This document shows positions 40,842 to 60,484 of a DNA stretch of 64,000 nucleotides, piece after piece. Below the pieces are notes generated by a model. The model worked only from the letters and a program-made list of their open reading frames with translations. It was not told the DNA's origin and made no database searches. Every line of letters begins with the position of its first letter. Positions within the stretch are counted from its first letter, which is position 1. Source of the DNA: Rhizobiaceae bacterium (GTDB lineage Bacteria; Pseudomonadota; Alphaproteobacteria; Rhizobiales; Rhizobiaceae); contig JAHBYY010000014.1 in assembly GCA_019635715.1 (NCBI GenBank), forward strand, positions 1-64,000, read 5' to 3'. The position numbers and the translations under genes were made by a program.

Positions 40842-40843
40842 CC

Positions 40844-41176: not shown

Positions 41177-41205
41177 GAAACGATCCGATCCGTTGAGCAG
41201 CAATC

Positions 41206-41700: not shown

Positions 41701-41809
41701 CGCTTGGACTTTCTCGATCATGGCTTGCACAACAGACCAGCGCCGATTCTTTCGCACGCTAAGGTACAGAAAATGAATTTACGTCAGGATGAAGTCCAAT
41801 GACCTGTAA

Positions 41810-41824
41810 CTATAGTTTCGATAG
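41810..41824. promoter_or_regulatory. LysR-type dyad, copy 1 (upstream of dps)
   Basis: CTATAGTTTCGATAG contains T-N11-A (41811-41823), and its arms CTATAG/CGATAG match at five of six positions around TTT. It is identical to the copy at 48541. It lies between dps and the gene at 41902. Confidence 0.6.
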
Positions 41825-41901
41825 TTCAGGCGACCAGAAACGAGCCTAGGGGCCTAGGTTCGCGCCCATCACGGTCACCACGTTTAGCGGTGAAGCCAAG
41901 C

Positions 41902-42168
41902 TCATGCGTCCGGTCGAAAGTGGAGCACGAACGCCACGACCTTTTCTGCGGACATCTCACACGGCTTGAGTGAAGCCTTGCCCGCTGAGACGCGGTACAG
42001 GTTGAAGCTAACGATATCGGTTCCAGCCAGCTCTCGGGCAAAAAGGCTGTTACGTCGGCCATCTTTGGAGCGGCGGACTGTAACGCCGAAGCGCCGGGCT
42101 TTGTAAGTGCCCCCACTATATCCGTCCGGTAGCTTAGCGAAAGCCGTATCGAATTCTTTCTCCTCCAT
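41902..42168 (-). CDS. Conserved small protein of unknown function
   Basis: An 88-residue protein (FAKLPDGYSGGTYKARRFGV, RNSLFARELAGTDIVSFNLYRV, SLKPCEMSAEKVVAFVLHF). Proteins of this look are found beside methionine sulfoxide reductase genes and have sometimes been given that name, although they lack an MsrA active site. This protein has one cysteine (KPCEM). It starts 1 base after the glutaredoxin stop and is probably co-transcribed with it. Confidence 0.75.
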   Translation of the reverse strand: MEEKEFDTAFAKLPDGYSGGTYKARRFGVTVRRSKDGRRNSLFARELAGTDIVSFNLYRVSAGKASLKPCEMSAEKVVAFVLHFRPDA

Positions 42169-42169
42169 T

Positions 42170-42445
42170 TCACGTCACTGGTGGCCGTCCGATGGCGAGC
42201 AGCTGGTCGAGCCCGCCTCTGGCATCGAGGGCATGGAGTTCGTCAGAGCCGCCCACATGCGTGCCGTTGATGAATATCTGCGGCACGGTCCTTCGACCTG
42301 AGACGTCGATCATCGCTTTTCGGTTTTCCGCACTAGCCTCGATGTCGACTTCCGTGAACGCTACCCCCTTTTTTGTAAGCAGCGCTTTCGCTCTGCGGCA
42401 GTATGGGCACCAACTCGTGACATAGAGGAGGACTTCTGGCTTCAT
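42170..42445 (-). CDS. grxC: Dithiol glutaredoxin, GrxC type
   Basis: Glutathione-dependent thiol oxidoreductase of 91 residues. The active site is CPYC (about residues 13-16, in TSWCPYCRRAKALL), the cis-proline is in TVPQIFI and the glutathione loop is GGSDEL. GGAGA lies 6 bases ahead of ATG 42445. The product would reduce protein disulfides and glutathione adducts, in line with the other redox-repair genes of the island. It may be the tail of the long minus-strand group from 48322, although 139 bases separate it from the response regulator. Confidence 0.95.
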   Translation of the reverse strand: MKPEVLLYVTSWCPYCRRAKALLTKKGVAFTEVDIEASAENRKAMIDVSGRRTVPQIFINGTHVGGSDELHALDARGGLDQLLAIGRPPVT

Positions 42446-42584
42446 TTTGCATCTCCAATCGTTGACGCGTGACGTGAGTCCTTCGCGGCAGAACCTAAGT
42501 ATCACCGCGACTCTCGAACGGCTGGGAGCGAGGGCGCAAAACTACGTGACGGCTGATTTGAGGCAGGCCGCAAGATCCAGGTCA

Positions 42585-42962
42585 TCACGCAGCCATTTTC
42601 CTGACCGCATCCAGCACCCGGTCTTGCCGGTATGGCTTGGAGAAGAATGGAATATCCGCTGGGACAACAGCTTCTTCCGGCCACGGCCTTCCGGACGTGA
42701 TTATGATCTGAATGGTCGGCCATTTGTTTCGAATACGGATGGCTAGCATGATGCCGTCGATGCCGCCCGGCATGTCCACGTCGGTGAAGACGACCCGGAT
42801 GTCGCGCCGTTCTTCCAAAGCCACGAGCGCAGCAGAGGCATCTGATGCTTCCAGCACTTCGAAGCCGGCTTCTTCAATCATGTCCGATGCAAAGAGACGG
42901 AGAAGTGGCTCATCTTCCACGACAAGCACGACTGGTTTGTTCATTCCACACACGTACTCCAT
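42585..42962 (-). CDS. Single-domain response regulator (CheY-like receiver)
   Basis: A stand-alone receiver of about 125 residues with no output domain. VVLVVEDEPLLRLFASDMIEEAGF opens it, the phosphorylated aspartate is in VVFTDVDMPGG, IIITSGR has the conserved Thr/Ser and FFSKPYRQD the lysine. Its ATG (42962) overlaps the TGA of the HWE kinase upstream (TGATG), so the two are a cognate pair; ATG 42944 is a second possible start. Rhizobial HWE kinases often work with such receivers in stress signalling. Confidence 0.9.
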   Translation of the reverse strand: MEYVCGMNKPVVLVVEDEPLLRLFASDMIEEAGFEVLEASDASAALVALEERRDIRVVFTDVDMPGGIDGIMLAIRIRNKWPTIQIIITSGRPWPEEAVVPADIPFFSKPYRQDRVLDAVRKMAA

Positions 42963-44569
42963 CAAGCCTGGACCAACTGGCGCATAGAGGCATGCAGGTC
43001 CGCCGCGAGGCCTTCTGGATCGAAGCGAAGATCGACGCCACCAGTACCGACCAAACCAATGCTGATTAGCTTTGAGCCGAAGCCTTTACGCGTCGGCGGC
43101 ACAACGGGAGGTCCGCCCCTCTCTCGCCACTCGATCTTCAGCAGATCGCCGTCCTGGCTGTCTTTGACGCCCCAAGACAGCGACACCTTCCCATAGTCAT
43201 TCGTCAGAGCGCCGTATTTGCAGGCGTTCGTCAGAAGTTCGTGCACGATGAGGGAAAAGGACAGCGCCGCTCTTGGCCCTAGCGCCACGGGCAATCCGGT
43301 CATTCTAACCCGATCCGAAAATCCGATCGCGTCTATGACGGTCGCCGCAACAGCTTGGAGATCAGCCTGTGTCCAGCTTGTCTGGAGCAGGGCGTCGTGT
43401 GCTGCGCTCAACGCCATCAGCCGGCGCTCGAAGGCATAAACAGCATCGCGGTCGGTGACGGTTCGCAAGGTTTGGCTCGCGATAGCCTGAACCATGGTGA
43501 GCGTATTCTTCAGGCGATGCGCGATTTCACCATTTACGATGTGCTGGCGCTGCTCGGCACGATGCCGAGCGACCCCTGCTTCAAGTCGGTCTGCAGCGCT
43601 CCGCAAGAATGCAATCTCTTCGGCAGGCCATAGCCGGGGGGTGCCGCAATGCACAAAGAAAACGGCAATTGTCTTGCCCTGATCGCGCACTGGCATGTCG
43701 ATCACTGCGCGAATACCAATACGCAACGCGCCATCGAGATTGTGCAGCGCGCGCTCGTCAGACAGGGCGTCCCTAACTATCAGAGGGTCGCCATCGACAA
43801 GTGGCTTGTGCAAACTCCCAAACTCGTCAAGCCGGTGTCGACCGGCGATGCTCATCACACCCGGTGCGGTCCAGTGTGTTTCAACGTTGATCGTCTCAAC
43901 GTCATGGTCGACGGTTCCAAACCCGGCTCGGTCCGTGGCGAGGGTCCGACCAACGATGGCAGAGGTGCCAGACGTCATCTCCTCTGTGCCGCTACTGCTG
44001 CGGATTACCTCACCGATCTCAACAAGAGCGGTCTGGAGTTCAGTTAGGCGCTCGCTAGCCTTGGCGATTCGACGCAGTTCGAGATTCTCGCTGGCGAGAC
44101 GGGCAAGCGCCTGGAGCATCGCCCTTTCCATCTCGCTCAGCCCTGCCGGCCGCGGAGCTGTATCGATAACACACAGCCGACCGACTACCGCCCCGGATCG
44201 AAGGACAAGCGGCGCGCCAGCATATGCCCTGAAGTGCTTTTCGCCGGTGACAAGTGGATTGCGTTTCGTTCGCGCATCGGCTGTCAAATCGACGATCTCT
44301 AGGAGGTCGCCTTTATCGATGTCGATCCGACAGACCGAATGTTCGATATCCGTCTCGCACACGTCGAGCCCGTACTTGGCCTTGAACCATTGTCGGTCTG
44401 TGTCGAGAAGCGTAATCAGAGCGATAGGAACGCCACAGGCCTTGGCCGCAACGAACACGAGATCGTCGAAGGACTGCTCGTCCGGTGTGTCGAGAACCAT
44501 GAGTTCAGCAAGCGCCTTCGCTCGCTGAACCGCCCCCACGTCGGCCGCACTGGCGCTCAGGCTCAGCAC
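42962..44569 (-). CDS. HWE-type sensor histidine kinase with two GAF domains
   Basis: Cytoplasmic sensor kinase of about 535 residues. A GAF domain lies at about residues 15-160 (VPIALITLLDTDRQWFKAKYG, HFRAYAGAPLVL) and a second at about 170-325. The HWE/HisKA_2 core has the H-box HRLKNTLTMVQAIASQTLR, the N-box IVHELLTNACKYGAL, and the W-x-E motif in LKIEWRERGGPP. There is no membrane segment, so it reads an internal signal. GTG 44569 has AGGA upstream and starts 2 bases after the oxidoreductase stop; ATG 44623, overlapping that gene, is possible. Confidence 0.9.
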   Translation of the reverse strand: MLSLSASAADVGAVQRAKALAELMVLDTPDEQSFDDLVFVAAKACGVPIALITLLDTDRQWFKAKYGLDVCETDIEHSVCRIDIDKGDLLEIVDLTADARTKRNPLVTGEKHFRAYAGAPLVLRSGAVVGRLCVIDTAPRPAGLSEMERAMLQALARLASENLELRRIAKASERLTELQTALVEIGEVIRSSSGTEEMTSGTSAIVGRTLATDRAGFGTVDHDVETINVETHWTAPGVMSIAGRHRLDEFGSLHKPLVDGDPLIVRDALSDERALHNLDGALRIGIRAVIDMPVRDQGKTIAVFFVHCGTPRLWPAEEIAFLRSAADRLEAGVARHRAEQRQHIVNGEIAHRLKNTLTMVQAIASQTLRTVTDRDAVYAFERRLMALSAAHDALLQTSWTQADLQAVAATVIDAIGFSDRVRMTGLPVALGPRAALSFSLIVHELLTNACKYGALTNDYGKVSLSWGVKDSQDGDLLKIEWRERGGPPVVPPTRKGFGSKLISIGLVGTGGVDLRFDPEGLAADLHASMRQLVQA

Positions 44570-44570
44570 G

Positions 44571-45641
44571 TCAATGTCCTTGCACGCGAGGCGGCCACTG
44601 CCGCGCCGATGTCCCAGCCTCACGCGTCACTGCAGCATCGCCACCTTCGACGATGAGGACAATCTTGCCTTGAATATGACCCGCCTCAGCACGCTCGTGG
44701 GCGGCAGCCGCTTCCGAGAGGGGGTACGTGCTATCGACCGCGACGCGAACGGTCCCGCTGTCCAGCAATCGGCCTAACTCGGCGAGTTGGGCTCCGTTGG
44801 ATCGGACCTGTGTTGCAGAGACCGTAACGCCAAGGTTAGCGGCTTCATCGTGTCCCTCGAAGCCAAGCGGAAAGATTGGAAAAAGCGCGCCGCCGCGACG
44901 TATCGAACGCAAGAAGCGACTGGCTGTCGGGCCACCTACTGCATCGACGACGAGGTCCACCTCGCGCACCGAGTCTTCCGCCTTGATTTTCGTGTAGTCG
45001 ATGAATTCGTCGGCGCCGAGATCGCGCAGAAATGTCTCGTGTCGGCTTGACGCGACAGCTATCACGCGCGCGCCCTTGTGTTTTGCTAACTGCAGTGCGA
45101 GGTGACCGACACCGCCGCCGGCGCCATTGATCATGACGCTTTTGCCTTCCAACGGGACCGGGTCGTGCCTCCCGGGCTGCAGGGGATTGGGTTCGCTATG
45201 ACCCAGCTCTATCAGGTACTGCCACGCGGTCAGTCCCGACATCGGCGCTGCAGCGGCATGAACATGGTCGAGGCCGCGAGGTTTTAGCGCCAGATCTGAT
45301 GCCGGTGCCGAAACGTACTCCGCATATCCCAGGCTTTCGCCAAAACTTGGGAATCGGATCATTCCAAAAACTTCGTCACCCGGCGAAAACGCTGTGACAT
45401 CTGAGGCGACAGCCTCAACGATCCCAGACACGTCCGAGCCGGGTATGGCCGGCAACTCGATCGACGGTCTCCACTCGGGGGGCAGCGCCTTGTACCCTTC
45501 TCTGAGATACCAATCTGGAGGATTGAGGCCAGCCGCATGCACTCGGACGAGAACCTCGCCTGGCCTGACGGCGGGCTTTGGAGCATCCTCGTAGCGGAGT
45601 ACGCCGGGAGCACCGAATTCGTGGAAGCGGATTGCCTTCAT
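44571..45641 (-). CDS. NADP-dependent quinone oxidoreductase (zinc-independent MDR family)
   Basis: Medium-chain reductase of 356 residues. MKAIRFHEFGAPGVLRYEDAPKP and VRVHAAGLNPPDWYLREG are the N-terminal domain, and GKSVMINGAGGGVGHLALQLAKHKGA is the NADPH-binding fold with the GxGGxG pattern. The structural and catalytic zinc cysteines of alcohol dehydrogenases are absent, so it is the quinone/enone reductase type. The C-terminus runs about 25 residues beyond the usual end (after GKIVLIVE). GGAGG precedes ATG 45641. It lies in the island's long minus-strand operon. Confidence 0.9.
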   Translation of the reverse strand: MKAIRFHEFGAPGVLRYEDAPKPAVRPGEVLVRVHAAGLNPPDWYLREGYKALPPEWRPSIELPAIPGSDVSGIVEAVASDVTAFSPGDEVFGMIRFPSFGESLGYAEYVSAPASDLALKPRGLDHVHAAAAPMSGLTAWQYLIELGHSEPNPLQPGRHDPVPLEGKSVMINGAGGGVGHLALQLAKHKGARVIAVASSRHETFLRDLGADEFIDYTKIKAEDSVREVDLVVDAVGGPTASRFLRSIRRGGALFPIFPLGFEGHDEAANLGVTVSATQVRSNGAQLAELGRLLDSGTVRVAVDSTYPLSEAAAAHERAEAGHIQGKIVLIVEGGDAAVTREAGTSARQWPPRVQGH

Positions 45642-45654
45642 CAATATCCTCCGG

Positions 45655-46920: not shown

Positions 46921-46977
46921 ACTGATCTCCTGGGAATCGGAAGTTGAAGAAGGATGAGCGTGGGCGGTTCGCTGCGT

Positions 46978-47724
46978 TTAACCACCATAGCGCTCAGTCT
47001 TGATGATTGAGGGGTCGAGGCCTGCCGAGAGCGCACCGTCCGTTGCGATGTTGACGAAGCCGTTGGAGCCGCAGACGAACACCTGCGAAGGGTTTCGGCC
47101 GAGACGGGAGATTGTCTCCTTGACCATCAAGCCGTCGATGCGCCGATCAAAGTCCGACGCGCGCAAGGGCGCCTCGCGGGTGATCGCCAGCGCCAAGCTG
47201 AATGCTGGATCGTCCGTTTCAATTGAGTGCAGTTCCCTGGAGAACAGCACGTCTTGGGCGGTCCGCGCCGACAGGAGCAATGCAACTGGGACCGTCTGCG
47301 CTAGGGATCGGCGCTGGCGGATCATCGACATCAGCGGCACCACGCCGGAGCCCGCCCCAATCAGTAGGACTGGCTCGTCGGCAGGCTCCGGCCATAGGAA
47401 ATGGCCACCGAGCGGCCCACGGAGTTCGATCTCGTCGCCGGTTGCTGCGATATCATGGAAGAACGGTGAGACCTCGCCATCGTGAAGGCGCTCGATGGCG
47501 AGTTCGAGGATCGGAGATGAAGCGGGCGACGAGGCGATCGAATAGCTTCGCATCGCGGTGTAGCCGTCGGGCGCGGTCAGACGGACATCGACGTGCTGGC
47601 CCGCGACATGAGCGAACGGGTTCCCCAACCGCAGGAAGAAGCTCTTGATACTCGGAGTCTGTTGGACGATTTCTTCGATGAAGCAGGACTGCCAAAACGC
47701 GGGTTGCGCGCCGATCTCAGTCAT
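46978..47724 (-). CDS. FAD/NAD(P)-binding ferredoxin reductase-type oxidoreductase
   Basis: Flavoprotein reductase of 248 residues without an iron-sulfur domain. MRSYSIASSPASSP contains the RxYS FAD motif, ELRGPLGGHFLW the second FAD motif, and LLIGAGSGVVPLMSMIRQ the NAD(P) site; FVCGSNGFVNIATDGAL is near the C-terminus. The start overlaps the stop of the sulfite-oxidase-like gene by eight bases, so the reductase probably passes NAD(P)H electrons to that molybdoenzyme. Confidence 0.9.
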   Translation of the reverse strand: MTEIGAQPAFWQSCFIEEIVQQTPSIKSFFLRLGNPFAHVAGQHVDVRLTAPDGYTAMRSYSIASSPASSPILELAIERLHDGEVSPFFHDIAATGDEIELRGPLGGHFLWPEPADEPVLLIGAGSGVVPLMSMIRQRRSLAQTVPVALLLSARTAQDVLFSRELHSIETDDPAFSLALAITREAPLRASDFDRRIDGLMVKETISRLGRNPSQVFVCGSNGFVNIATDGALSAGLDPSIIKTERYGG

Positions 47725-48322
47725 GGGTGTATCTCTGCTCGCGCCAAGGATCGCCGTAGATGTGGTATCCACGCAGCTCCCAGAAGCCGGCTTCATCACG
47801 CGTTGTGAATTGCAGCGCGTTCACCCATTTTGCGGACTTCCAGAAGTATAGGTGAGGAACGAGGAGGCGCGCCGGTCCTCCATGATCGCGTGGAAGTGGC
47901 TGGCCCTCGTAGTTCAGAGCGATCATCGCCTTCCCCGACAACATGTCGGCCAAAGGAACATTCGTCGAATACCCGTCGTAGCAATGCGCCAAGACGAAGT
48001 CGGTTGGCCGCTCAATCCCTGCTGCCGCAAGGATGTCCTCGATGAGCACGCCCTCCCATGCAGTATCGAGCTTGGACCAGGACGTCACACAGTGAATGTC
48101 TTTGGTCACCTTCGTTTTAGGCAGGGCGTTGAACTCGCCCCAATTCCAGACCTTAATGGGTCTCGGGCCGATCTTGACCGTGAACTTCCAGTCGGATGTC
48201 TCAATGCGCGGCGTCGGTCCCGCTGTCAGAACCGGAAAATTTTCAACGAGGTGCTGACCAGGCGGGATTCGGTTCGAGTGGTCGCCGCCTGAACCGCGGC
48301 CGGTAAAACCTCTGGTGACCAT
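47717..48322 (-). CDS. Sulfite-oxidase-like molybdopterin oxidoreductase
   Basis: Molybdenum enzyme of the SUOX/MsrP (YedY) fold, 201 residues, cytoplasmic with no Tat signal or heme domain. FPVLTAGPTPRIETSDWKFTV opens it. The molybdenum-ligand cysteine is in KDIHCVTSWSKLDTAWEGV, and LAHCYDGYSTNVPLADML, HGGPARLLVPHLYFWKSAKW and GYHIYGDPWREQRY complete the cofactor site. By homology it could reduce an S- or N-oxide with electrons from the adjacent flavin reductase. The substrate is unproven. It heads the long operon running to 42585. Confidence 0.9.
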   Translation of the reverse strand: MVTRGFTGRGSGGDHSNRIPPGQHLVENFPVLTAGPTPRIETSDWKFTVKIGPRPIKVWNWGEFNALPKTKVTKDIHCVTSWSKLDTAWEGVLIEDILAAAGIERPTDFVLAHCYDGYSTNVPLADMLSGKAMIALNYEGQPLPRDHGGPARLLVPHLYFWKSAKWVNALQFTTRDEAGFWELRGYHIYGDPWREQRYTHD

Positions 48323-48540
48323 GTCGAACCCCCTTGCTTGTCACGACAGACCGGAGCCGGGTTCATTACAGACTATTAGGTACAACAACTTCGCGCAAGC
48401 AAAGGTCGAGCTTTCCGATAGGCTGAATCTTGGATCACCGGCGTGTTCTACGATACAACAATAGTTTCGCCCGCTATGAGCTGCGACGATTGCATAGATA
48501 CTATAGCGGCATATCGCCAAGTTTGACCAATGCCTGTTCG

Positions 48541-48555
48541 CTATAGTTTCGATAG
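48541..48555. promoter_or_regulatory. LysR-type dyad, copy 2 (between the molybdoenzyme operon and nadE)
   Basis: CTATAGTTTCGATAG, identical to copy 1, lies in the 347-base divergent region 48323-48669, 115 bases before nadE and 219 before the molybdoenzyme start. That region is AT-rich and holds no gene. A weaker half-copy (AATAGTTTCG) is near 48460. Confidence 0.6.
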
Positions 48556-48669
48556 CTTTTTGCAAGAGTCGCAACTGCGTTCCCCTCGGCAAACTGCCAG
48601 GGTATGCTCCCTCGCGCACACGCTTCGCTGCGAGCGTGGATGCGCGCTGCGCGACAATGAAAGATCGAG

Positions 48670-49509
48670 ATGACCATCCAGACCGAGATCATCGGTGCGC
48701 TCAACGTCTCCGTTTCATTCGACGCGCGACGTGAGACGGTAGGCCGGACCAGGTTTCTTAGCGACTACCTGGAGAGATCGGGTCTTCGCGCATTCATCCT
48801 GGGCATCAGTGGAGGTATCGACTCTCTCACTGCAGGTCTGCTTGCGCAGTCGGCTGTGAGGACACTGCGCGAGCGCGGTTACGACAGTGCATTCGTGGCA
48901 GTCCGATTGCCATACGGCACGCAGGCCGACGAAGCCGACGCGCAACTTGCCCTGCAAGCGATCAAGCCCGACCGAACAGTCACGATCGATGTGAAACCGG
49001 CGACGGACAATATCTGGCAAGAGGTGTTGAATGCTGGTCTCGCCCCCGCAGATTCGAGCGAACGCGATCTCGTTCTCGGGAACATCAAGGCGCGTCAGCG
49101 CATGGTGGCGCAATTCGCACTTGCAGGCAGCTTGCGGGGTTTGGTCATCGGGACGGACCATGCTGCGGAGGCGGTGATGGGATTCTTCACTAAGTTCGGC
49201 GATGGAGCAGCCGACCTCTTGCCGCTAGCGGGCCTGAACAAACGGCGCGTGCGCGCGATAGCATCGTACTTAGGCGCACCGGCAAAGCTGATCGGCAAGG
49301 TTCCTACCGCAGACTTGGATGATGGCGCGCCGTTGCGACCGGACGAGGATGTCTATGGCGTGACCTACGACCAAATCGACGATTTCCTCGAAGGTAAAGC
49401 CGTGAATGAGTCAGTTGCGGGGACGATCGCAAGCGCATACCGCGCGACGGCGCACAAGCGCGCGCTCCCTGTGGCGCACAGCTCGAGAAGTGGCCGTCAA
49501 GAGCGCTGA
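48670..49509 (+). CDS. nadE: NAD synthetase, ammonia-dependent type
   Basis: Makes NAD from deamido-NAD, ATP and ammonia, 279 residues with no glutaminase domain. The PP-loop is LGISGGIDSLTAG (about residues 44-56), the adenylate region IGTDHAAEAVMGFFTKFGDGAADLLPLAGLNK, and PTADLDDGAPLRPDED the C-terminal loop. It lies on a stress island with GAPDH and NAD(P)H-using repair enzymes, so a second NAD supply under oxidative stress is a sensible reading. It is divergent from the molybdoenzyme operon, with a dyad between them. Confidence 0.95.
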   Translation: MTIQTEIIGALNVSVSFDARRETVGRTRFLSDYLERSGLRAFILGISGGIDSLTAGLLAQSAVRTLRERGYDSAFVAVRLPYGTQADEADAQLALQAIKPDRTVTIDVKPATDNIWQEVLNAGLAPADSSERDLVLGNIKARQRMVAQFALAGSLRGLVIGTDHAAEAVMGFFTKFGDGAADLLPLAGLNKRRVRAIASYLGAPAKLIGKVPTADLDDGAPLRPDEDVYGVTYDQIDDFLEGKAVNESVAGTIASAYRATAHKRALPVAHSSRSGRQER

Positions 49510-49538
49510 GGGAGAACCGCCCCACCAACGGGGTACGT

Positions 49539-49555
49539 GGTATGGAAACTATACC
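49539..49555. promoter_or_regulatory. LysR-type dyad, copy 3 (between nadE and the redoxin operon)
   Basis: GGTATGGAAACTATACC is the same motif read from the other strand. Its seven-base arms match except at one position, and it contains T-N11-A at 49541-49553. It lies 205 bases upstream of the redoxin start, in a 250-base gap with no other gene seen. Confidence 0.6.
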
Positions 49556-49759
49556 GAGCAGCTATTGGTATTGTGGATCGTAACAATTCATAGTTGCTGC
49601 TGCGGAAATCTTGGTTTCCTGAGGCAAGGATCGGACGAAAACTCGATCGAATCGATCAAGAGACCTCAAGCCAAAGAGCGCAGATCAGGACAGCAGTTCG
49701 CCTGCCGCCGCAATGCTCGGCCAGACATCGGGCTTCTGCATTGAGGTTGGAGAAAGCGG

Positions 49760-50233
49760 ATGAGCGCTACCGGAGCACAAGCGCCCGAGCTTCGTGTGCA
49801 ACATTGGATCGGCGGAGACGGACACCGCCTTGACGTGCCCCTCAAGCTCTCAGACATCGGTAGCGGACCGAAGATTCTGTTCGCGTTCCAGCACTGGTGC
49901 CGTGGTTGCCATTTGCATGGCTTTCCCACGCTTCAAAGATTGCATGGGGCGTTGGAATCCAGAGGCGTCGGGTTTGCGGTCGTCCAAACGGTTTTCGAAG
50001 GCGCGCAAGAGAACACATTCGAAAAACTGCGCGTCAATCAGCTCCAGTACGGCTTACCTGTCGCCTTTGGTCACGACGAGCCACCACCAGGTGCACCGTT
50101 CCCAACGCTCATGGGGGATTATCATACCCGGGGAACGCCTTGGTTTGTGGTGATCGATGCCGATGGCTACATTGTCTTCTCTGACTTCCATCTAGAAGCA
50201 GATCGTCTTGTGGCGGAACTGGAGCGGGCGTGA
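49760..50233 (+). CDS. Thioredoxin-fold redoxin protein
   Basis: A 157-residue thioredoxin-like protein with the CxxC motif CRGC (in FAFQHWCRGCHLHGFPTLQ), the cis-proline in HTRGTPWFVVIDADG and no signal peptide. It fits the AhpC/TSA-redoxin group that reduces thiols or peroxides in the cytoplasm. It is the first gene of a three-gene plus-strand operon with a DM13 protein and an MFS transporter, and the LysR-type dyad is upstream. Confidence 0.85.
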   Translation: MSATGAQAPELRVQHWIGGDGHRLDVPLKLSDIGSGPKILFAFQHWCRGCHLHGFPTLQRLHGALESRGVGFAVVQTVFEGAQENTFEKLRVNQLQYGLPVAFGHDEPPPGAPFPTLMGDYHTRGTPWFVVIDADGYIVFSDFHLEADRLVAELERA

Positions 50234-50237
50234 CGCT

Positions 50238-50729
50238 ATGCCGCGTTGGCTGATCCTCACCGGGACTCACATCCTCGTCATGTCCATAGGCTTCGCCGGT
50301 GGGATCTATCTGCTGCCGATCCTGACTGCGCCGCCTGCGCCCACTGAAGCCGCGCTCCAGAGTTCTGCTTCGAAAGCGGTCTACGTGGGGCGGTTTGCAC
50401 GCGATCTTAAGGGCAGTGATCTACTGCACTGGGGTGACGGAGAGGTTCGTGTCGCGCCCGATCGGATCGTGCACCTTGGGCGTCTGTCTCCTGGTCCGGA
50501 TTACAAAGTCTACCTCGCGCCCCGGTTTGTAGACACCAAACAGGACTTCCTTGAAGCCAAAGGCTCTTCAGTTCTGCTGGGAGATGTGAAGACCTTCGCT
50601 GGGTTCATCGTGGCGGTGCCAAGAGGCGTCGACGTTGACGATTACAGCGCAGTTGTCATCTGGTGCGAGGCGTTTGATCAATTCATCAGCGCTGCGGAGT
50701 ATCGAGTTCCGCGACAGGCTCTGAAATGA
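50238..50729 (+). CDS. Membrane-anchored DM13-domain protein
   Basis: A 163-residue protein with one N-terminal membrane helix (ILTGTHILVMSIGFAGGIYLL) and an external DM13 domain: VYVGRFARDLKGSDLLHWGDGEVRV, PGPDYKVYLAPRFVDTK and YSAVVIWCEAFDQFISAAEYR with the conserved cysteine in WCEAF. DM13 domains are thought to take part in extracytoplasmic redox or electron transfer. It starts 4 bases after the redoxin and overlaps the MFS gene as ATGA. Confidence 0.88.
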   Translation: MPRWLILTGTHILVMSIGFAGGIYLLPILTAPPAPTEAALQSSASKAVYVGRFARDLKGSDLLHWGDGEVRVAPDRIVHLGRLSPGPDYKVYLAPRFVDTKQDFLEAKGSSVLLGDVKTFAGFIVAVPRGVDVDDYSAVVIWCEAFDQFISAAEYRVPRQALK

Positions 50730-52006
50730 GCCAGGCATTGGACAACGTGAAGGCTGCTTGCACGCGTGGTCTCGTCCTCGCGCCAGTAGCCGCCTTGCTG
50801 TTGAGCGTCGCCATCTTGCTGCTCGGCAACGGGCTGCTGGGCACGCTTTTGATCGTCAGAGCTGGTCAGGAGGGCTTCTCGGCCGCCGCGATCAGCGCGA
50901 TGATGTCGTTCTACTTCGCAGGCTTCACGATTGGCGCGCTGGTTTTGCCTCGCATCATTGTGTCGGTGGGGCACGTACGGACCTTCGCCGGCTTTGCGGC
51001 GATCGCATCGATGACCGCCCTTCTCCATGTAGCGTTCGTAAATCCGGTAGCTTGGATGCCGCTTCGGCTCGTGACCGGCTTCGCATATGCGGGAATGATC
51101 CTCGCAACGGAAAGCTGGCTCAATGCCCACGCGGTTCAATCCACACGCGGTCAGCTTTTGTCGATTTTCGGCGTTGTCTCCATGGGTTCTTGGGCGACCG
51201 GACAGGCGCTCCTCAACATCGCTCCACCCGCCGATGTTACACTTTTCCTCATCGTCTCGCTGCTGATATCTGCCGCAGTGGTTCCGATCACTCTACTCCC
51301 CAGTCATTCGCCGGCCGACGTACGGCACGAGTCGGTTGCATTCAGGGATCTCTTTTCTGTTTCGCCCTTGGCGTCGATCGGCGTCTTCTTGGCCGGGCTG
51401 GCCATAGGCGGCTTCTGGGGCATGGGGCCTAATTTCGCGCAAAGGATTGGTCTCGACGTCGCCGGCATCTCCGCCTTCATGGCCGCGGTTCTCGGAGGAA
51501 CGCTTGTGTTGCAATGGCCGCTCGGTTGGCTCTCCGACCGGGTGTCCAGGAACCTGGTCATCGCAGGAGCGGCGCTGGCATCCGCCGTGGCAGCCATCGG
51601 CGTGTCGGTGGCGGCAGACGCCCCTTTGCCCGTCCTTCTTGCGGCGGGAGCGCTCTTCGGCGGTTTTGGCATCCCGATCTACTCGCTGTGTCTCGCCGCC
51701 GCGAACGACGACCTTCCTCCAGGGCGGCTGCTCGGCACCGCGCGAGGGCTTCTGCTGCTCAACGGGATCGGAACGGCGGCCGGACCACTTGTCGGGGGCG
51801 TGGTGATGGATCGTGTCGGGCCTGGTGGGCTGTTCGTCTATGCTGCTGTCCTGCTGACCATGCTAGCGGTGTTAGCGGGCCTACGCGGTCGCTCTCGCTC
51901 CGCAATCGAGGTAAAGGCGACACGTTGTCCGAGTACGCCGATGATCACCGCCTCTCTCGATGCGATGATACGAACCCAGGACGAGCCGCAGAGCGTTCGG
52001 AACTAG
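50726..52006 (+). CDS. MFS transporter, YcaD-like
   Basis: Major facilitator protein of 426 residues with twelve hydrophobic segments. GFTIGALVLPRIIVSVGHVRTFAGF is motif A-like, RLVTGFAYAGMILATESWLNAHA matches the YcaD subgroup (E/W-LN motif), and LQWPLGWLSDRVSRN is the second-half repeat. The substrate is unknown. It is coupled to the DM13 gene by ATGA and so belongs to the redoxin operon, which suggests export or import of a redox-active small molecule (inference). Confidence 0.88.
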   Translation: MSQALDNVKAACTRGLVLAPVAALLLSVAILLLGNGLLGTLLIVRAGQEGFSAAAISAMMSFYFAGFTIGALVLPRIIVSVGHVRTFAGFAAIASMTALLHVAFVNPVAWMPLRLVTGFAYAGMILATESWLNAHAVQSTRGQLLSIFGVVSMGSWATGQALLNIAPPADVTLFLIVSLLISAAVVPITLLPSHSPADVRHESVAFRDLFSVSPLASIGVFLAGLAIGGFWGMGPNFAQRIGLDVAGISAFMAAVLGGTLVLQWPLGWLSDRVSRNLVIAGAALASAVAAIGVSVAADAPLPVLLAAGALFGGFGIPIYSLCLAAANDDLPPGRLLGTARGLLLLNGIGTAAGPLVGGVVMDRVGPGGLFVYAAVLLTMLAVLAGLRGRSRSAIEVKATRCPSTPMITASLDAMIRTQDEPQSVRN

Positions 52007-52030
52007 CGCTGCGGCCCCGGCGACCGTTTG

Positions 52031-52480
52031 CTATGAGACAGCTTCGACCTTCAGCTCTCGGCCGTTGAATTGAACCGTCTCGCCAGCCTGAGCCCCGTCG
52101 ATTACCTCGAAGATCGGCGCCATCGTCGATATGCCCATAAGCTCGCGCCCATGGCAGACGAACTTGTCCGTTGACACCGCGACGACGAAGTAGCGACCCG
52201 ACAACTTGATGACCGCCCCTTCTGTAACCGCCGTCTTCGGTCCGAAGTCGATTGTTCTCAGCTTGTCGAGCTTGTCGGCGTAATCGTCCAGCGTATCGTC
52301 GAGCGCCTCGGCGAAGTCGCTCGCGATCTCGGCTTGTGCCTGTTCGTCGTTCTCGATCGGCTCGCTCCGATCCAAGCGAGCGGTGGAAACATAATCGAGA
52401 TACTTGTCGCGAGCGCTCTGCAGAGCAGCGGTCTCCAACGACAGCATCGTTTCCCGGATGTGGTCCTTATTCCAATCCAT
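52031..52480 (-). CDS. Protein with a Gre-factor-like C-terminal domain
   Basis: A 149-residue protein. The N-terminal half is a charged helical hairpin (DHIRETMLSLETAALQSARDKY, DFAEALDDTLDDYADKLDKL), and the C-terminal half (VTEGAVIKLSGRYFVVAVST, MGISTMAPIFEVIDGAQAGETVQFNG) resembles the C-terminal domain of GreA/GreB elongation factors. The N-terminal hairpin tip lacks the two acidic residues in the GreA arrangement, so it may bind the RNA polymerase secondary channel without stimulating cleavage. It is convergent with the MFS gene. Confidence 0.7.
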   Translation of the reverse strand: MDWNKDHIRETMLSLETAALQSARDKYLDYVSTARLDRSEPIENDEQAQAEIASDFAEALDDTLDDYADKLDKLRTIDFGPKTAVTEGAVIKLSGRYFVVAVSTDKFVCHGRELMGISTMAPIFEVIDGAQAGETVQFNGRELKVEAVS

Positions 52481-52566
52481 CTGCACCTCGTTGCATTGCA
52501 ATTTGAAATGATAAGCCGATCTATCGAAGCAAGCCGTTGAAAGGCCGCGTTCCGCAGCCGGCACCG

Positions 52567-53139
52567 TTATTCTTCGATGATGACGTCTTCGCCCTGGTAG
52601 GGGATTCTGATCAGCCGAGGATCCCGAATGATGCTGGTCACGAGCCAGACATACGTCTGTTCTGCGGTATCGAAGCCGAGAATGCTGAATGCGCCCCCGA
52701 ACGGGCATGCCGGAAAATCGGGGAAGCCTTCTCGAAGAACGTAACGCTCGGGTTCGCGATCGAATTCGGCCTTATAGACCTTCCGCAGCCCATGCTTGCT
52801 CGGAACGCCTTCGTCGCCTGCAGGCGTTATCTCACGATGTTCCAGGAGGCGCTCGGAAAGATCACGGTGGCAAATCTCGTCGAACACGTCGAAGGCATCA
52901 ATCAGCAAACCTTTTCGCTCGGTCGCGGGATCGGTGATCGCGTAGATGTTCGAAGCATCTTCGGCACCGTCCCCGCTTTCGAGACGCAGCGCTGCGTCGA
53001 CGCGAATGGAGCATGGATCGAGCATCGATCCCAGTTCGAGATCGACTAGGTTGCCGTCCTTGACGCGGTACTCGCGGTCATAGCCCTTCGCGACGAAGGT
53101 CTGCACTGCTTCTAGAACGTCGGTCACTTGGGCGGTCAT
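52567..53139 (-). CDS. Conserved hypothetical protein
   Basis: A 190-residue acidic protein. Its N-terminal half (VLEAVQTFVAKGYDREYRVK, ALRLESGDGAEDASNIYAIT, KGLLIDAFDVFDE) resembles small proteins often misnamed phosphoribosylpyrophosphate synthetase. They lack PRPP synthase motifs and have no known role. The C-terminal half (YVLREGFPDFPACPFGGAFS, VWLVTSIIRDPRLIRIPYQG) is unfamiliar. It is 86 bases upstream of the Gre-like gene and likely shares its transcript. Confidence 0.7.
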   Translation of the reverse strand: MTAQVTDVLEAVQTFVAKGYDREYRVKDGNLVDLELGSMLDPCSIRVDAALRLESGDGAEDASNIYAITDPATERKGLLIDAFDVFDEICHRDLSERLLEHREITPAGDEGVPSKHGLRKVYKAEFDREPERYVLREGFPDFPACPFGGAFSILGFDTAEQTYVWLVTSIIRDPRLIRIPYQGEDVIIEE

Positions 53140-53230
53140 TGATGCACCTCGAGTTCACGTTGGGACGGAAGGGCGGCTGTGGACGGCGCGCGGCAGCCTG
53201 CTGGATCTAGTTGAGGCTCGCGCGCAGCGA

Positions 53231-54199
53231 TCACAGCCACTTGGCCTTCTTGAACCGCACGAACAGGAAGAGGCAGAACATCAGCATGACACCGAGCACG
53301 ACGAAGTAGCCGTAAGCCGTGTCCAGTTCCGGCATGTTCTTGAAGTTCATGCCGTATATGCCTGCAATCGCTGTCGGCACTGCGAGGATCGCGGCCCATG
53401 CCGCAAGTTGGCGTGTGACGACCCCGATTCTTTGCGCTTCGAGAAGGCTGCTGAACTCGAATACAGTGGATAGCACCTGCAGGAGGCCATCGACCATGGA
53501 CTGGACACGATCAACATGGTCGGCAACGTCGTTGAAGTAGGGCCGCACCTCAGCGCTGATGCAGGGAAAGTGTCCGCGCACGAGCTTGCGCACCAGTTCG
53601 GCCATAGCGCCAAGGGTGCGCTGAAAGCGCGTCAGCTCGCATCTCAGGCCGAAGATGCGAGCAACGTCCTCTCGCCCAAGGAAGTCGTCGAGCGACCGCC
53701 TCTCCATCGCAAGTACGTCATCCTCGATCATTTCGAAGATGGGCAGATACTGATCCACGATCCGGTGAAGGATCGCGTGGAGGACGTAATCGACGCCTTT
53801 TCCGAACTGGGCGGGCGAACGCTCGAGTTGCTCTCGAAGGTTGCCCAATGCACCAGCGTTGCCGTGGCGAACGGTGATAAGATGGTTATGGCCAGTAAAG
53901 ATCGCCGTCTTGCCGTAACGTATGCGGTCCCCGACCAGCTCAGCTGTCTGGGCGACGACGTAAAGCTCGCCGTTATAAACTTCGAGCTTGGGCGGGCATA
54001 TCGGGTGCATCGCGTTGTCTATCGCCAAAGGATGCAGATTATAGGTCGCCTGAAGCGCCCTCAGTTCGTTGACGGAAGGCTCGCTGAGCCCAATCCAGCA
54101 GAAGCCCGAACGGTTCTTGTCGAGCTCGACGCGTTCGTCGATAGCCACTTCTCGGATACGCCGACCCTCGTTGTAGTAATATGCAGCGATGACACTCAT
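53231..54199 (-). CDS. corA: CorA family magnesium/divalent cation transporter
   Basis: Pentameric inner-membrane channel subunit of 322 residues. The long cytoplasmic part (DKNRSGFCWIGLSEPSVNELRALQ, YVLHAILHRIVDQYLPIFEMIEDDV) leads to two C-terminal membrane helices with the selectivity signature YGMNFKNMPE and a basic end (RFKKAKWL). Its substrate may be Mg, Co or Ni. The start overlaps the stop of the glutathione transferase gene as ATGA. Confidence 0.93.
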   Translation of the reverse strand: MSVIAAYYYNEGRRIREVAIDERVELDKNRSGFCWIGLSEPSVNELRALQATYNLHPLAIDNAMHPICPPKLEVYNGELYVVAQTAELVGDRIRYGKTAIFTGHNHLITVRHGNAGALGNLREQLERSPAQFGKGVDYVLHAILHRIVDQYLPIFEMIEDDVLAMERRSLDDFLGREDVARIFGLRCELTRFQRTLGAMAELVRKLVRGHFPCISAEVRPYFNDVADHVDRVQSMVDGLLQVLSTVFEFSSLLEAQRIGVVTRQLAAWAAILAVPTAIAGIYGMNFKNMPELDTAYGYFVVLGVMLMFCLFLFVRFKKAKWL

Positions 54200-54900
54200 G
54201 CTGATCTCGCCGGCATGAGCAGCCCACGTTGGACTGCTGGGCGCGCAAGGCCGCGATCCAGCCACGCTCGGACATTCGAATGATCGCTAAACCGCAGTAG
54301 GTCGCCGGCATCGTAGGCGCCAACCAGGGCGTTCACCCAACCGAGGGTCGCAATGTCAGCAATGGAGTAGTCGTCAACGATCCAGCTGCGCCCGTCCAAC
54401 TGGCGATCCAAGACGCCTAGAAGACGTCTGGACTCGTCGGCGAACCGCTGCTGAGGCCGCTTATCCTCGTAGTCCTTACCGCCCCAACGCAAGAAAAAGC
54501 CGAGTTGACCGAACATTGGGCCAATCGCCGACATCTGGAAGAATACCCAGCTTAGCGCCTCGTAGCGCTTGGCTGATGCTCTCGGGACGAGCTGGTCGGT
54601 CTTCTCGGCCAAATAAACGAGGATCGCACCGGATTCCCAAACGCCGAGCGGCTTACCGTCCGGGCCCACTGGGTCGATGATCGCAGGTATGCGGCCATTC
54701 GGGTTTAGTGAAACGAAGGCCGGATCTTTGCTTTCGTTTTTAGAGATGTCGATAAAGTGCGGCTCGTACGGCAGGCCGATCTCCTCGAGCATGATCGAGA
54801 CCTTGACGCCGTTGGGCGTGGGCGCGGCGTAGAGCTGCAGAAGGTCGGGGTTGGATGCCGGCCAGCGTTGTGTGATCGGAAACGAAGAAAGGTCTGGCAT
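54196..54900 (-). CDS. Glutathione S-transferase, YfcG/Ure2p-like
   Basis: A 234-residue GST-fold protein. LLQLYAAPTPNGVKVSIMLEEIGLPYEPHFIDI and NPNGRIPAIIDP (cis-proline), then GVWESGAILVYLAEKT (Glu-Ser glutathione motif), make the thioredoxin-like domain. The helical domain ends RSWIVDDYSIADIATLGWV. Such proteins act as glutathione-dependent disulfide reductases or peroxidases. It is coupled (ATGA) to corA. Confidence 0.92.
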   Translation of the reverse strand: MPDLSSFPITQRWPASNPDLLQLYAAPTPNGVKVSIMLEEIGLPYEPHFIDISKNESKDPAFVSLNPNGRIPAIIDPVGPDGKPLGVWESGAILVYLAEKTDQLVPRASAKRYEALSWVFFQMSAIGPMFGQLGFFLRWGGKDYEDKRPQQRFADESRRLLGVLDRQLDGRSWIVDDYSIADIATLGWVNALVGAYDAGDLLRFSDHSNVRAWLDRGLARPAVQRGLLMPARSA

Positions 54901-54965
54901 GATGTGGCGATCCTAACAACTCGATGGCTGAGGAGCGGTCTGACCGCTTGATTAGCTGGGTTTCA

Positions 54966-54992
54966 GACCCGCACCATCAGTGGATGCGGGTC
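54966..54992 (-). terminator. Hairpin between msrA and the GST gene
   Basis: GACCCGCA (54966-54973) and TGCGGGTC (54985-54992) form a perfect 8-bp stem with an 11-base loop, beyond the stop of the msrB-msrA operon. There is no T-run, so termination is possible but not certain. Confidence 0.4.
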
Positions 54993-55034
54993 CGATGGTG
55001 CGACCCAGGGGCTCAGCCGCAATTGTCGCTGCAG

Positions 55035-55574
55035 TTATTCCGCTGCCGCGCCGGCCTCAGCCTGGGTGTCGCCAGCGTCTTTACGCTTCGGGAGCACCCA
55101 GTTAGCGCGCGGGAAATGACAGGTATATCCGCCCGGCCTCTTCTCCAGATAATCCTGGTGCTCCGGCTCTGCTTCCCAGAAGTCACCCACGGGCTCGACT
55201 TCGGTGACGACCTTGCCGTCCCACAGTCCGGACGCGTCGACGTCGGCTATCGTATCTTCGGCGATGCGCTTCTGCTCCTCGTCGACGTAATAGATGCCAG
55301 ACCGATAGGAGAGGCCGCGGTCGTTGCCTTGGCGGTTCTTTGTCGTCGGATCATGGATCTGGAAGAAGTATTCCAGGATATTACGGTAGCTCGTCACTGT
55401 CGGGTCGAAGGTGATCTCGATCCCCTCTGCATGAGTGCCATGGTTGCGGTACGTGGCATTCGGCACGTCGCCACCGGTGTAGCCGACGCGGGTCGAAACG
55501 ATGCCGGGCTGCTTGCGGATCAGATCCTGCATTCCCCAAAAGCATCCGCCAGCGAGAACAGCGCGCTGTTGCAT
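55035..55574 (-). CDS. msrA: Peptide-methionine (S)-S-oxide reductase MsrA
   Basis: Second MsrA of the island, 179 residues. The catalytic motif is [52 protein letters not shown] and [13 protein letters not shown] are standard, and [13 protein letters not shown] has the resolving cysteine region. It begins 1 base after the MsrB stop, so the two repair both epimers of methionine sulfoxide from one transcript driven from the dyad at 56131. Confidence 0.97.
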
Positions 55575-55575
55575 G

Positions 55576-56019
55576 TTAGGCCTCCTCTACTTGGTCGAGA
55601 TATTCGCCATAGCCCGCGGCTTCCATCTCATCGCGCGGGATGAATCGAAGTGATGCCGAGTTGATGCAGTAGCGCAGGCCGCCGCGGTCGGACGGCCCGT
55701 CCGGAAACACGTGGCCAAGATGGCTGTCGCCGTGCACCGAGCGAACCTCCGTCCGGACCATGCCATGCGAGCTGTCTCGCACTTCGTTCACGTGAGCCGC
55801 GACGATCGGCTTGGTAAAGCTCGGCCAGCCAGTGCCGGACTCGAACTTGTCCGTCGACGCGAACAACGGCTCGCCGGATACGACGTCAACGTAGATGCCC
55901 GCCTCCTTGTTGTCGTTATACTCGCCGGTAAAGGGTCTCTCGGTGCCGTCCTGCTGGGTGATCCGGCGTTGTTCCGGGGTCAGGCGTTCGATTGCTGCCT
56001 GCGACTTTTCAAACTTCAT
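55576..56019 (-). CDS. msrB: Peptide-methionine (R)-S-oxide reductase MsrB, zinc-less form
   Basis: Reduces the R-epimer of methionine sulfoxide, 147 residues. [39 protein letters not shown] and the catalytic cysteine in [12 protein letters not shown] are present. The two CxxC pairs that bind structural zinc in many MsrBs are absent ([10 protein letters not shown] and RSVHGDSH). Only one cysteine remains, so recycling may need an external thiol such as the island's glutaredoxin. A LysR-type dyad lies 112 bases upstream. Confidence 0.96.
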
Positions 56020-56130
56020 GGTGAATCTCCATTACTTAGTTAGAGGGTCAGGCACACTACGTTCAATTTATCACGTCGATACTCACATCAACTATCGCAG
56101 TGGCCCCAACATTAATCCAATACGTCGTGC

Positions 56131-56145
56131 GTATAGTTTCTATAC
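56131..56145. promoter_or_regulatory. LysR-type dyad, copy 4 (upstream of msrB)
   Basis: GTATAGTTTCTATAC is a perfect 6-3-6 palindrome containing T-N11-A. It lies 112 bases upstream of msrB and just downstream of the lysR stop, in AT-rich sequence with no other gene. Confidence 0.65.
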
Positions 56146-60456: not shown

Positions 60457-60467
60457 TGCCACATCTA

Positions 60468-60484
60468 TATGTGCGCGAAGCATA
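60468..60484. promoter_or_regulatory. Weak operator-like site upstream of the MarR gene
   Basis: TATGTGCGCGAAGCATA is a degenerate relative of the TATGCG-NNA-CGCATA palindrome, just upstream of ATG 60456. It could serve autoregulation. The match is imperfect. Confidence 0.3.

Follow-up and report, generated by a model that had tools for sequence, protein, structure and literature searches.

The 64,000-nucleotide stretch of Rhizobiaceae DNA analysed here (the window) carries an island that very probably forms a self-contained LysR-type activator regulon of oxidative-damage repair. The sequence itself establishes the operator unit and its orientation, which genes it faces, how it is tied to one LysR clade, and that the island is mobile; LysR binding, activation rather than repression and oxidant sensing are properties that we infer.

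Four operator units face redox-repair operons

LysR proteins bind T-N11-A dyads in target promoters. The four dyads reported in the initial annotation are all present, with CTATAGTTTCGATAG at 41810 and 48541, GTATAGTTTCCATAC on the minus strand at 49540 and GTATAGTTTCTATAC at 56131; each contains T-N11-A and is intergenic by the present gene reading. The predicted operator is longer than the dyad first described and consists of the dyad, nine bases and ATTGG. Read on the gene strand, the form common to all four units is STATNGAAACTATNS-N9-ATTGG, often followed by a -10-like ATAGT:

41796..41824 (-), unit facing dps, CTATCGAAACTATAG-N9-ATTGG, 0 mismatches
48527..48555 (-), unit facing the molybdoenzyme operon, CTATCGAAACTATAG-N9-ATTGG, 0 mismatches
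49540..49568 (+), unit facing redoxin-DM13-MFS, GTATGGAAACTATAC-N9-ATTGG, 0 mismatches
56117..56145 (-), unit facing msrB-msrA, GTATAGAAACTATAC-N9-ATTGG, 0 mismatches

A -10-like TATAGT lies downstream of the 48527..48555 unit, as do CATAGT and GATAGT downstream of the units at 49540..49568 and 56117..56145, respectively. The weak match at 48492 (two mismatches) falls in the part of the molybdoenzyme promoter that holds the -10-like TATAGT. In the LysR family the dyad usually lies between about -50 and -75 and a second contact is made near -35; the site often lies in the gap divergent from lysR and is often autoregulatory, an arrangement that is common and not required; the composite pattern (dyad-N9-ATTGG) found no unit in the lysR gap of the window. 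The proposed regulator, the target operons and their neighbours are:

56170..57045 (-), LysR-type regulator, proposed reader of the four units; Pfam HTH_1 and LysR_substrate
55576..56019 (-), msrB, target; Pfam SelR, NCBIfam TIGR00357 above cut-off
55035..55574 (-), msrA, in the target operon with msrB; Pfam PMSR, TIGR00401 above cut-off
54196..54900 (-), glutathione S-transferase (GST)-like gene downstream of msrBA; named from the annotation of its plasmid counterpart and synteny
47717..48322 (-), molybdopterin oxidoreductase, target; Pfam Oxidored_molyb
46978..47799 (-), FAD/NAD reductase adjoining the molybdoenzyme; Pfam FAD_binding_6 and NAD_binding_1
49760..50233 (+), redoxin-like, target; weak Pfam Redoxin match, 20.3 bits, below the cut-off of 26.6
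50208..50729 (+), DM13-domain protein, target operon; Pfam DM13
50726..52006 (+), MFS transporter, target operon; Pfam MFS_1
41206..41757 (-), Dps-like ferritin, target; Pfam Ferritin, NCBIfam Dps models below their cut-offs
40844..41233 (-), short hydrolase-like gene of the dps operon, overlapping dps and msrA2; no Pfam match, named by eye and in the initial annotation
40356..40847 (-), divergent MsrA-like gene at the end of the dps operon; Pfam PMSR 76 bits, TIGR00401 58 bits, below the cut-off of 108
48670..49509 (+), nadE, on the island and faced by no operator; NCBIfam NF001979 above cut-off
59917..60546 (-), MarR-family regulator of the island; Pfam MarR_2

The FAD/NAD reductase probably belongs to the molybdoenzyme operon, an adjacency that is kept in many loci. 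The GST-like gene, with a unit of its own in 0 of 19 upstream regions, may be a member of the msrBA transcript. No tRNA or tmRNA was found in the window.

The targets first listed stand for dps, the molybdoenzyme, the redoxin and msrB. The fifth, nadE, is rejected and placed outside the regulon because no unit faces it: the site at 48541 faces the molybdoenzyme operon, and nadE has facing units in 0 of 2 upstream regions and opposite-strand units in both. Distances of about 90-115 bases had been given for three starts; this holds for msrB (111) and not for the redoxin (205) or the molybdoenzyme (218), and the third distance was probably that to nadE (114), a non-target. The dps unit lies 52 bases from a long GTG start, or 88 or 109 bases from inner ATGs.

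Conservation of the unit in related islands

The dyad, which the initial annotation expected to recur before the same genes elsewhere, is kept upstream of orthologous genes in related islands. Across 53 island loci (910 kb), the pattern STATAGTTTCBATAS gave 65 exact and 27 one-mismatch matches, and 51 loci had either; three control patterns over the same loci gave 0 exact and 2 one-mismatch matches in all. The two loci in which the dyad is missing are a fragment (L077) and a locus whose contig ends about 640 bp beyond lysR (L030). With the composite unit, the window and 61 loci yielded 80 exact and 42 one-mismatch matches, and the reversed control 0 of either. All operator counts omit the loci with a LysR below 35% identity (L065-L072, L074-L076 and L078-L082), several of which do sit in the alignment behind the LysR model.

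Because many loci are near-identical recent transfers, non-redundant upstream regions were counted gene by gene, leaving out those of the window. Allowing up to two mismatches, a facing unit precedes msrB in 24 of 28 regions, the molybdoenzyme (Moco) in 13 of 15, dps in five of six and the redoxin in eight of 19; in several other loci the site is carried by a dehydrogenase gene instead of the redoxin. Among 18 other gene classes at the same threshold, 16 gave 0 and the remaining two, DUFx and MarR, gave 1/15 and 2/24, with 0 for shuffled sequence. The predicted regulon is wider than the window shows: in relatives the unit also stands before genes for 6-phosphogluconate dehydrogenase, cytochrome P460 and zinc-type dehydrogenases. 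Cytochrome P460 is also a unit-faced gene class in the genus Sphingopyxis, and in G019 it is faced by a unit that lies on a contig other than that of lysR.

In 48 representatives (<70% identity over 100 bp), the flank upstream of the unit has a mean information of 0.08 bit versus 1.45 for the dyad, and the outer TAT/ATA arms show symmetry and almost no variation, findings that carry a selection caveat, the representatives having been chosen with the composite pattern. Any of the four bases may precede GAAAC. ATAGT is frequent at position 50/51 and is exact at the -10 place in 25 of 47 representatives (L203 omitted). Conservation at the fixed positions partly reflects selection, since the composite pattern was tuned on these same loci; the dyad of the initial annotation was not.

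Frequency of the motif in the window, its genome and the class

Searching the window with STATAGTTTCKATAS at up to three mismatches gave 8 matches (two places counted on both strands) versus 1.17 expected, a number reached by none of 100 window shuffles. A background frequency of the dyad in its own genome (4.57 Mb in 151 contigs, 85% complete) would have refuted the initial reading and was not found: STATAGTTTCBATAS has four exact matches, all in the window, one match with one mismatch and three with two, of which one (48492) is inside the window. Its reversed control gave 13 matches at up to two mismatches, so only the exact matches stand out. The dyad with the linked ATTGG again has four exact matches, all in the window, and the next best has two mismatches; the control gave two at up to three mismatches. 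Among 385 genomes of the class, the composite pattern at up to one mismatch was found in 17, including the genome of the window, versus 28 for the reversed control, and there is thus no signal outside the carriers.

The unit tracks a LysR clade

The LysR protein matches HTH_1 and LysR_substrate with 66.7 and 103.7 bits, above the gathering cut-offs, and its AlphaFold model has a mean pLDDT of 89. Used as a query against the window, it found only 56170-57045. The proposal that this protein is the regulator is supported by the co-occurrence of lysR and unit, and by retention of the unit beside LysR proteins of 42-60% identity, including loci where the MarR of the island was not found. In one genus, all eight genomes with lysR have 4-10 units and 70 of the 72 without it have none (control 0); in G535 units persist and lysR was not found. 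Eleven loci encode a 42-60% identical LysR, ten of them with msrB, which has a facing unit at one to three mismatches in nine of the ten. The msrB unit of L214 (44% LysR) has four mismatches, equal to the control level, and the match beside the G267 LysR (L203, 42%) is weak and oddly placed. No unit was found in two loci with 35% and 30% LysR relatives.

In distant loci the unit usually lies immediately before or after lysR, and in L119, L216 and L217 it lies in a divergent lysR/dehydrogenase gap. Units facing lysR were found in 0 of 29 upstream regions, so autoregulation is not indicated. At least two of the 385 class genomes matched in a LysR search of the best six candidates per genome, in which distant relatives were probably missed; phages gave no LysR match at E 1e-30.

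C198 is present in all 16 aligned LysR rows, C144 in 15 and C238 in 14, a count that omits three interrupted-frame stretches (L045, and L063 in two pieces). C198 is no marker of this clade, since it also occurs in LysR proteins of 30-35% identity without the operator.

Proposed mechanism and alternative explanations

We propose that the LysR protein (56170-57045) binds the 15-bp T-N11-A dyad, STATNGAAACTATNS on the gene strand, at a fixed 9 bp upstream of ATTGG, which would serve as the -35 region and perhaps as a second LysR contact too. With ATTGG as -35 and the following ATAGT as -10, the dyad would lie near -54, a usual place for a LysR activator. Oxidants would change the protein, probably via the conserved cysteines C198, C144 and C238, and the changed form would activate msrB-msrA, the molybdoenzyme-reductase operon, redoxin-DM13-MFS and dps-hydrolase-msrA together; in relatives it would also drive zinc-type quinone/alcohol dehydrogenases, 6-phosphogluconate dehydrogenase and cytochrome P460.

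The regulon may be real and read by LysR while responding not to an oxidant but to an electrophile, a quinone, a reactive nitrogen species or a small-molecule ligand; oxidant defence would then be one of its outputs. We regard this as rather unlikely. PF03466 domains often bind ligands, and the lysR-divergent dehydrogenase (L119, L216 and L217), the GST, the MFS exporter and cytochrome P460 would be expected under electrophile or nitrogen-oxide stress as well; arguing for oxidants are the three msrA genes, msrB, Dps and redoxin of the island and the conserved LysR cysteines. The same direction is indicated by the Sinorhizobium meliloti pSymA pair msrB2/msrA3, given as H2O2-induced in a review table (PMC6315971). 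That entry also names RpoH1, heat shock and NCR peptides (PMC6315971), so control of the S. meliloti pair would not lie with LysR alone.

That the dyad is instead the site of the island MarR (59917-60546), with LysR a bystander, is very unlikely, and we reject it because no match to this MarR was found in the S. meliloti and G036 loci, where the unit is retained next to LysR. The incomplete gene table of the S. meliloti locus lists no MarR, and the only MarR relatives in the P. versutus and G019 loci are at 32-38% identity. The MarR does accompany the unit elsewhere: most close loci of sufficient length have it at 76-89% identity, and within one genus it goes with the unit in seven of 80 genomes, all with lysR. 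Distant loci usually have the unit directly beside lysR, and T-N11-A at a fixed distance to a -35-like element fits what is known of LysR activators.

GGAAC-like -35 sequences are promoter elements of alternative sigma factors, and the conserved block, which is directional and often has a GGAAAC core, could be such a promoter rather than a regulator site. This is highly improbable and is rejected on the free base before GAAAC, the symmetric and nearly fixed TAT/ATA arms (with the selection caveat above), the -35/-10-like pair downstream of the block and the tracking of lysR by the block. Chance, or a dispersed repeat copied with mobile or recently duplicated sequence, is a practically negligible explanation although two of the four dyads are identical, since the flanks are unrelated where the unit stays (the bit values above, selection caveat included), orientation and place relative to genes are fixed, and the genome, locus and gene-anchored unit counts already contradict it.

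Mobility of the island

The island with its units is horizontally mobile, a near-identical copy being present in unrelated hosts: Thauera and Pantoea copies are 99.93% identical over 15.4 kb. Its lysR matches 222 plasmid records at E 1e-60; identity is 80-90% in 158 of these, and 165 of the 222 are predicted to be conjugative. Carriers span alpha-, beta- and gammaproteobacteria and plasmids, many from wastewater and hospital sources. The picture suggests a stress response that crosses bacterial classes together with its regulator and promoters. A more specific proposal, possible and on balance doubtful, is a transmissible oxidant-tolerance regulon whose LysR senses oxidants that damage methionine (reactive chlorine or chloramine, and perhaps reactive nitrogen) and travels with its operators and modular repair genes. 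If true, this would be a mobile stress regulon with its own regulator, not plugged into the host's OxyR, SoxR or RpoH.

Comparison with known systems

OxyR is a LysR-type peroxide sensor that governs oxidative defence genes at scattered promoters through a C199-C208 disulfide pair and a series of four ATAG elements at 10-bp steps (ATAG-N7-CTAT). Both proteins belong to the LysR family, OxyR 4x6g is the best single-sequence PDB match of the window LysR (E 7.5e-15), and an RDQ stretch adjoining the sensor cysteine region is common to both; the best PDB match of the profile is another LysR, 7w06. In contrast to OxyR, the window LysR scores 72 bits on the OxyR equivalog NF008361 versus a cut-off of 329, its C198 aligns one residue off what we take to be C199 in OxyR numbering, and it has no C208 partner, column 208 being Cys only in L122 (a 30% outgroup). 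The operator also differs, being an ATAG-N3-CTAT-like 15-bp dyad-N9-ATTGG.

HypT (YjiE) of Escherichia coli is a LysR-type reactive-chlorine regulator linked to methionine oxidation; it is activated by M123, M206 and M230 and governs methionine and cysteine biosynthesis and iron uptake genes (PMC7464077). Compared with that description, the present unit faces msr and redox genes and the conserved residues are cysteines. Besides the start, only Met column 215 is kept in most LysR rows (14 of 16), and there the window LysR has Ile.

The operator and regulon were not found in the literature searched, in which subscription papers were mostly outside reach. A LysR-msrB-msrA neighbourhood is reported for Thalassobacter, S. 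meliloti and Sphingopyxis, with no regulatory site or regulon described in the parts seen (PMC4247871). On IncP-6 and blaAFM plasmids, an msrB-msrA-yfcG-corA cluster has been called an anti-oxidative system (PMC8421773) and is also named in PMC9984417, PMC4785139 and PMC7096625. Compared by gene order rather than sequence identity, it equals the msrB-msrA-GST-CorA of the window, and the portions of those papers available to us describe no LysR regulator, operator or other operons. With dyad-N9-ATTGG, a LysR clade that is otherwise anonymous gains a precise candidate operator, and the analysis suggests that the gene order mentioned only in passing for carbapenemase plasmids belongs to a defined regulon.

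Putative operator units in the window and its own genome

The four copies of a 15-bp T-N11-A dyad of LysR type that the initial annotation had reported are present in the window sequence, and two regulators encoded in the island could read them:

41810, dyad facing dps
48541, dyad facing the molybdoenzyme operon
49540, dyad facing the redoxin-DM13-MFS operon
56131, dyad facing msrB-msrA
56170-57045 (-), LysR-type regulator, the proposed reader
59917-60546 (-), MarR-type regulator

As for background frequency, a search of the 4.57 Mb genome with the pattern STATAGTTTCBATAS gave four exact matches, all inside the window. With up to two mismatches there are 8 genome matches versus 13 for the reversed pattern, so that only exact dyad matches stand out. 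Read on the strand of the gene that each faces, the four sites show one common unit: STATNGAAACTATNS, nine bases and ATTGG. This composite unit, STATNGAAACTATNS-N9-ATTGG, also has four exact matches in the genome, all in the window, with the next best at two mismatches; a reversed composite control gave two genome matches at up to three mismatches. Of 47 representatives sharing <70% identity over 100 bp, 25 have ATAGT at 50-51 bases from the start of the dyad, although this element was not a selection criterion. If ATTGG and ATAGT serve as -35 and -10 elements, the dyad centre would fall at about -54, a position that we infer from these spacings.

Conservation in related islands

A contig scan recovered 69 LysR loci, 52 of them full-length (290 or 291 of 291 residues; 78-95% identity to the window protein), with hosts that by record title are alpha-, beta- and gammaproteobacteria, and one contig assigned to an Acidobacteriota bin. 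The lysR frame is interrupted in two loci (L063:10001-10872 and L045:5466-6338). Gene order is mostly conserved, running GAPDH-MarR-ZIP-MsrA3-hydrolase/OsmC-LysR-MsrB-MsrA-GST-CorA, two unknown genes, and MFS-DM13-redoxin-(NadE)-molybdoenzyme-reductase-thiolase; dps and an additional MsrA are present in some related loci only.

In the full-length loci and one fragment (53 loci, 910 kb, many near-identical), the dyad occurs 65 times exactly, 27 times at one mismatch and 22 times at two, against no exact match, two one-mismatch matches in total, and 13, 9 and 3 two-mismatch matches for three control patterns. The dyad sought in related islands was found at up to one mismatch in 51 of the 53 loci, and L030 and the fragment L077 have none at this threshold. 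The whole genomes of 39 carriers hold 78 exact dyads versus one reversed-control match, with at least one exact dyad in 35; the loci in the other four genomes (L017, L018, L058 and L060) hold the dyad at one mismatch. An insertion of ~1.15 kb lies between operator and msrB in the lysR-msrB gap of the Serratia and Mixta copies (L039 and L073), and the msrBA operon there may have lost its control through it.

Genes faced by the unit

Sites were also assessed without being picked by the motif, by taking up to 300 bp upstream of orthologous gene starts in the fetched loci, removing redundancy, and scoring units that face the gene at up to two mismatches. Such units precede MsrB in 24 of 28 non-redundant upstreams, the molybdoenzyme in 13 of 15, Dps in 5 of 6 and redoxin in 8 of 19. 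The redoxin shortfall arises in part because in several loci a dehydrogenase gene intervenes and is itself faced by the site; the window's own dehydrogenase class has no facing unit (0/2). Sixteen of 18 other gene classes have none (LysR 0/29, GST 0/19, hydrolase/OsmC 0/14), the remaining two are low (DUFx 1/15, MarR 2/24), and shuffled sequences gave none. On the opposite strand, the only units are before NadE (2/2), LysR (1) and MarR (1). The initial annotation had nadE share the site at 48541; with NadE at 0/2 facing and 2/2 opposite, this site belongs to the molybdoenzyme operon.

In the window, the hydrolase-like gene of the dps operon (40844-41233) is short; its relative in locus L196 matches in two pieces ~520 bp apart, and the window copy may carry an internal deletion. 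The molybdopterin oxidoreductase at 47717-48322, which matches MsrP and sulfite dehydrogenase weakly, adjoins an FAD/NAD reductase (46978-47799), and the two may work together as an NAD(P)H-driven sulfoxide reductase pair.

LysR or MarR as the regulator

Eighty genomes from the genus of Sphingopyxis sp. H073 (carrier of L020) were compared. All eight that are LysR-positive (E 1e-50) contain 4-10 units when one mismatch is allowed; 70 of the 72 LysR-negative genomes have none, G496 has one one-mismatch unit and G535 five, and controls gave no match in the 80. G535 (L197/L198) retains units and island genes up to msrB, but a LysR was not found anywhere in its genome and none of the units is close to msrB. 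This state resembles a natural deletion and could serve as a comparison. MarR accompanies LysR in seven of the eight positives, and in the eighth (genome of L049) the contig ends at lysR; the genus test alone therefore cannot separate the two regulators.

Distant loci do separate them. For the S. meliloti pSymA locus (trxB-lysR-msrB-msrA-hydrolase/OsmC; LysR 60%), the features listed within 12 kb include no MarR, and the G036 locus (LysR 43%) gave no MarR match, yet both keep the unit, in favour of LysR as originally proposed. Across 11 distant loci (LysR 42-60%; L114 and L117 are from the same species, L115 and L215 apparently close kin), msrB is present in ten and faced by a unit at 1-3 mismatches in nine; in the tenth, L214, msrB lies away from lysR and its unit appears only at four mismatches. 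In L119, L216 and L217 the gap between lysR and the dehydrogenase gene holds a unit at one mismatch, and in L014 a 48% LysR paralogue adjoins a second msrB-msrA with a three-mismatch unit. The loci with LysR at 35% and 30% have no unit even when four mismatches are allowed; at this threshold the reversed control matched once in the 16 loci examined. Counting against the tie between LysR and operator, G267 (LysR 42%, 1.5 kb flank only) has its three-mismatch match ~700 bp beyond lysR. The operator core reads GAATC, not GAAAC, in L114, L116, L117 and L213 (S. meliloti, R. gallicum and G704 group; LysR 55-60%), a possible co-change of regulator and operator. A second MarR relative in the window (63563-63895) is 44% identical to part of the first.

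Further putative regulon members and mobility

In the Sphingopyxis genus, units also face 6-phosphogluconate dehydrogenase, cytochrome P460, a zinc-type dehydrogenase and a 112-residue gene (no Pfam match) preceding a second MsrA; in L048 and L053 a unit faces a 285-residue protein, whose L048 copy has no Pfam match. An exact unit in G019 faces a cytochrome P460 pair on a contig other than that of lysR, the first protein being 47% identical to the Sphingopyxis-genus cytochrome P460.

Operator units before cytochrome P460 genes in two lineages
L195:2545
L222:about 1501

That P460 genes recur downstream of the unit in two lineages, in one of them on a separate contig from lysR, speaks for a functioning regulon, and these targets give a hint of chemistry involving hydroxylamine, NO or chloramine.

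Over 15.4 kb, the Thauera and Pantoea copies of the island share 99.93% identity. LysR is encoded on 222 of 72,556 plasmid records (E 1e-60), 158 at 80-90% identity and 165 predicted conjugative; many of the 60 records listed come from wastewater, sinks and patients. All six plasmid records scanned (L113-L118) carry the unit. On L113, a plasmid typed non-mobilizable, the island adjoins trbG/trbI, and a Tn5403 transposase lies next to its shortened MFS gene. GC content in the window, mostly 0.65-0.70, drops near 39-40 kb to about 0.58-0.62.

Candidate sensor cysteines and comparison with known systems

Three LysR cysteines are conserved: C198 (16/16 rows; 40/41 in a wider set), C144 (15/16; 39/41) and C238 (14/16; 39/41). 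In the confidently predicted model (mean pLDDT 89), C198 immediately precedes a helix, and C144 and C238 lie within strands. By profile alignment, C198 is one residue off the position of OxyR C199, a cysteine in the wild type and Asp in structure 4x6g, and an RDQ stretch follows in both. C198 also occurs in the operator-less 30% and 35% proteins and is therefore no mark of this clade. By the equivalog model and by the cysteine pair, the LysR protein is not an OxyR.

The review table in PMC6315971 lists SMa1894 (msrB2) and SMa1896 (msrA3) as responsive to H2O2, heat shock and NCR peptides, and names RpoH1, not OxyR. We infer that these are the msr pair beside the pSymA LysR, since no other msr genes in the table bear SMa (pSymA) numbers. 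An msrB-msrA-yfcG-corA cluster has been named on IncP-6 and blaAFM plasmids (PMC8421773, PMC9984417, PMC4785139, PMC7096625) and is called an anti-oxidative system in the first of these papers, and PMC4247871 records LysR adjoining msrB-msrA in three alphaproteobacteria; the passages returned by full-text literature searches describe neither this operator nor this regulon. The system is best read as a LysR-type redox regulon, unusual in travelling with its own regulator.
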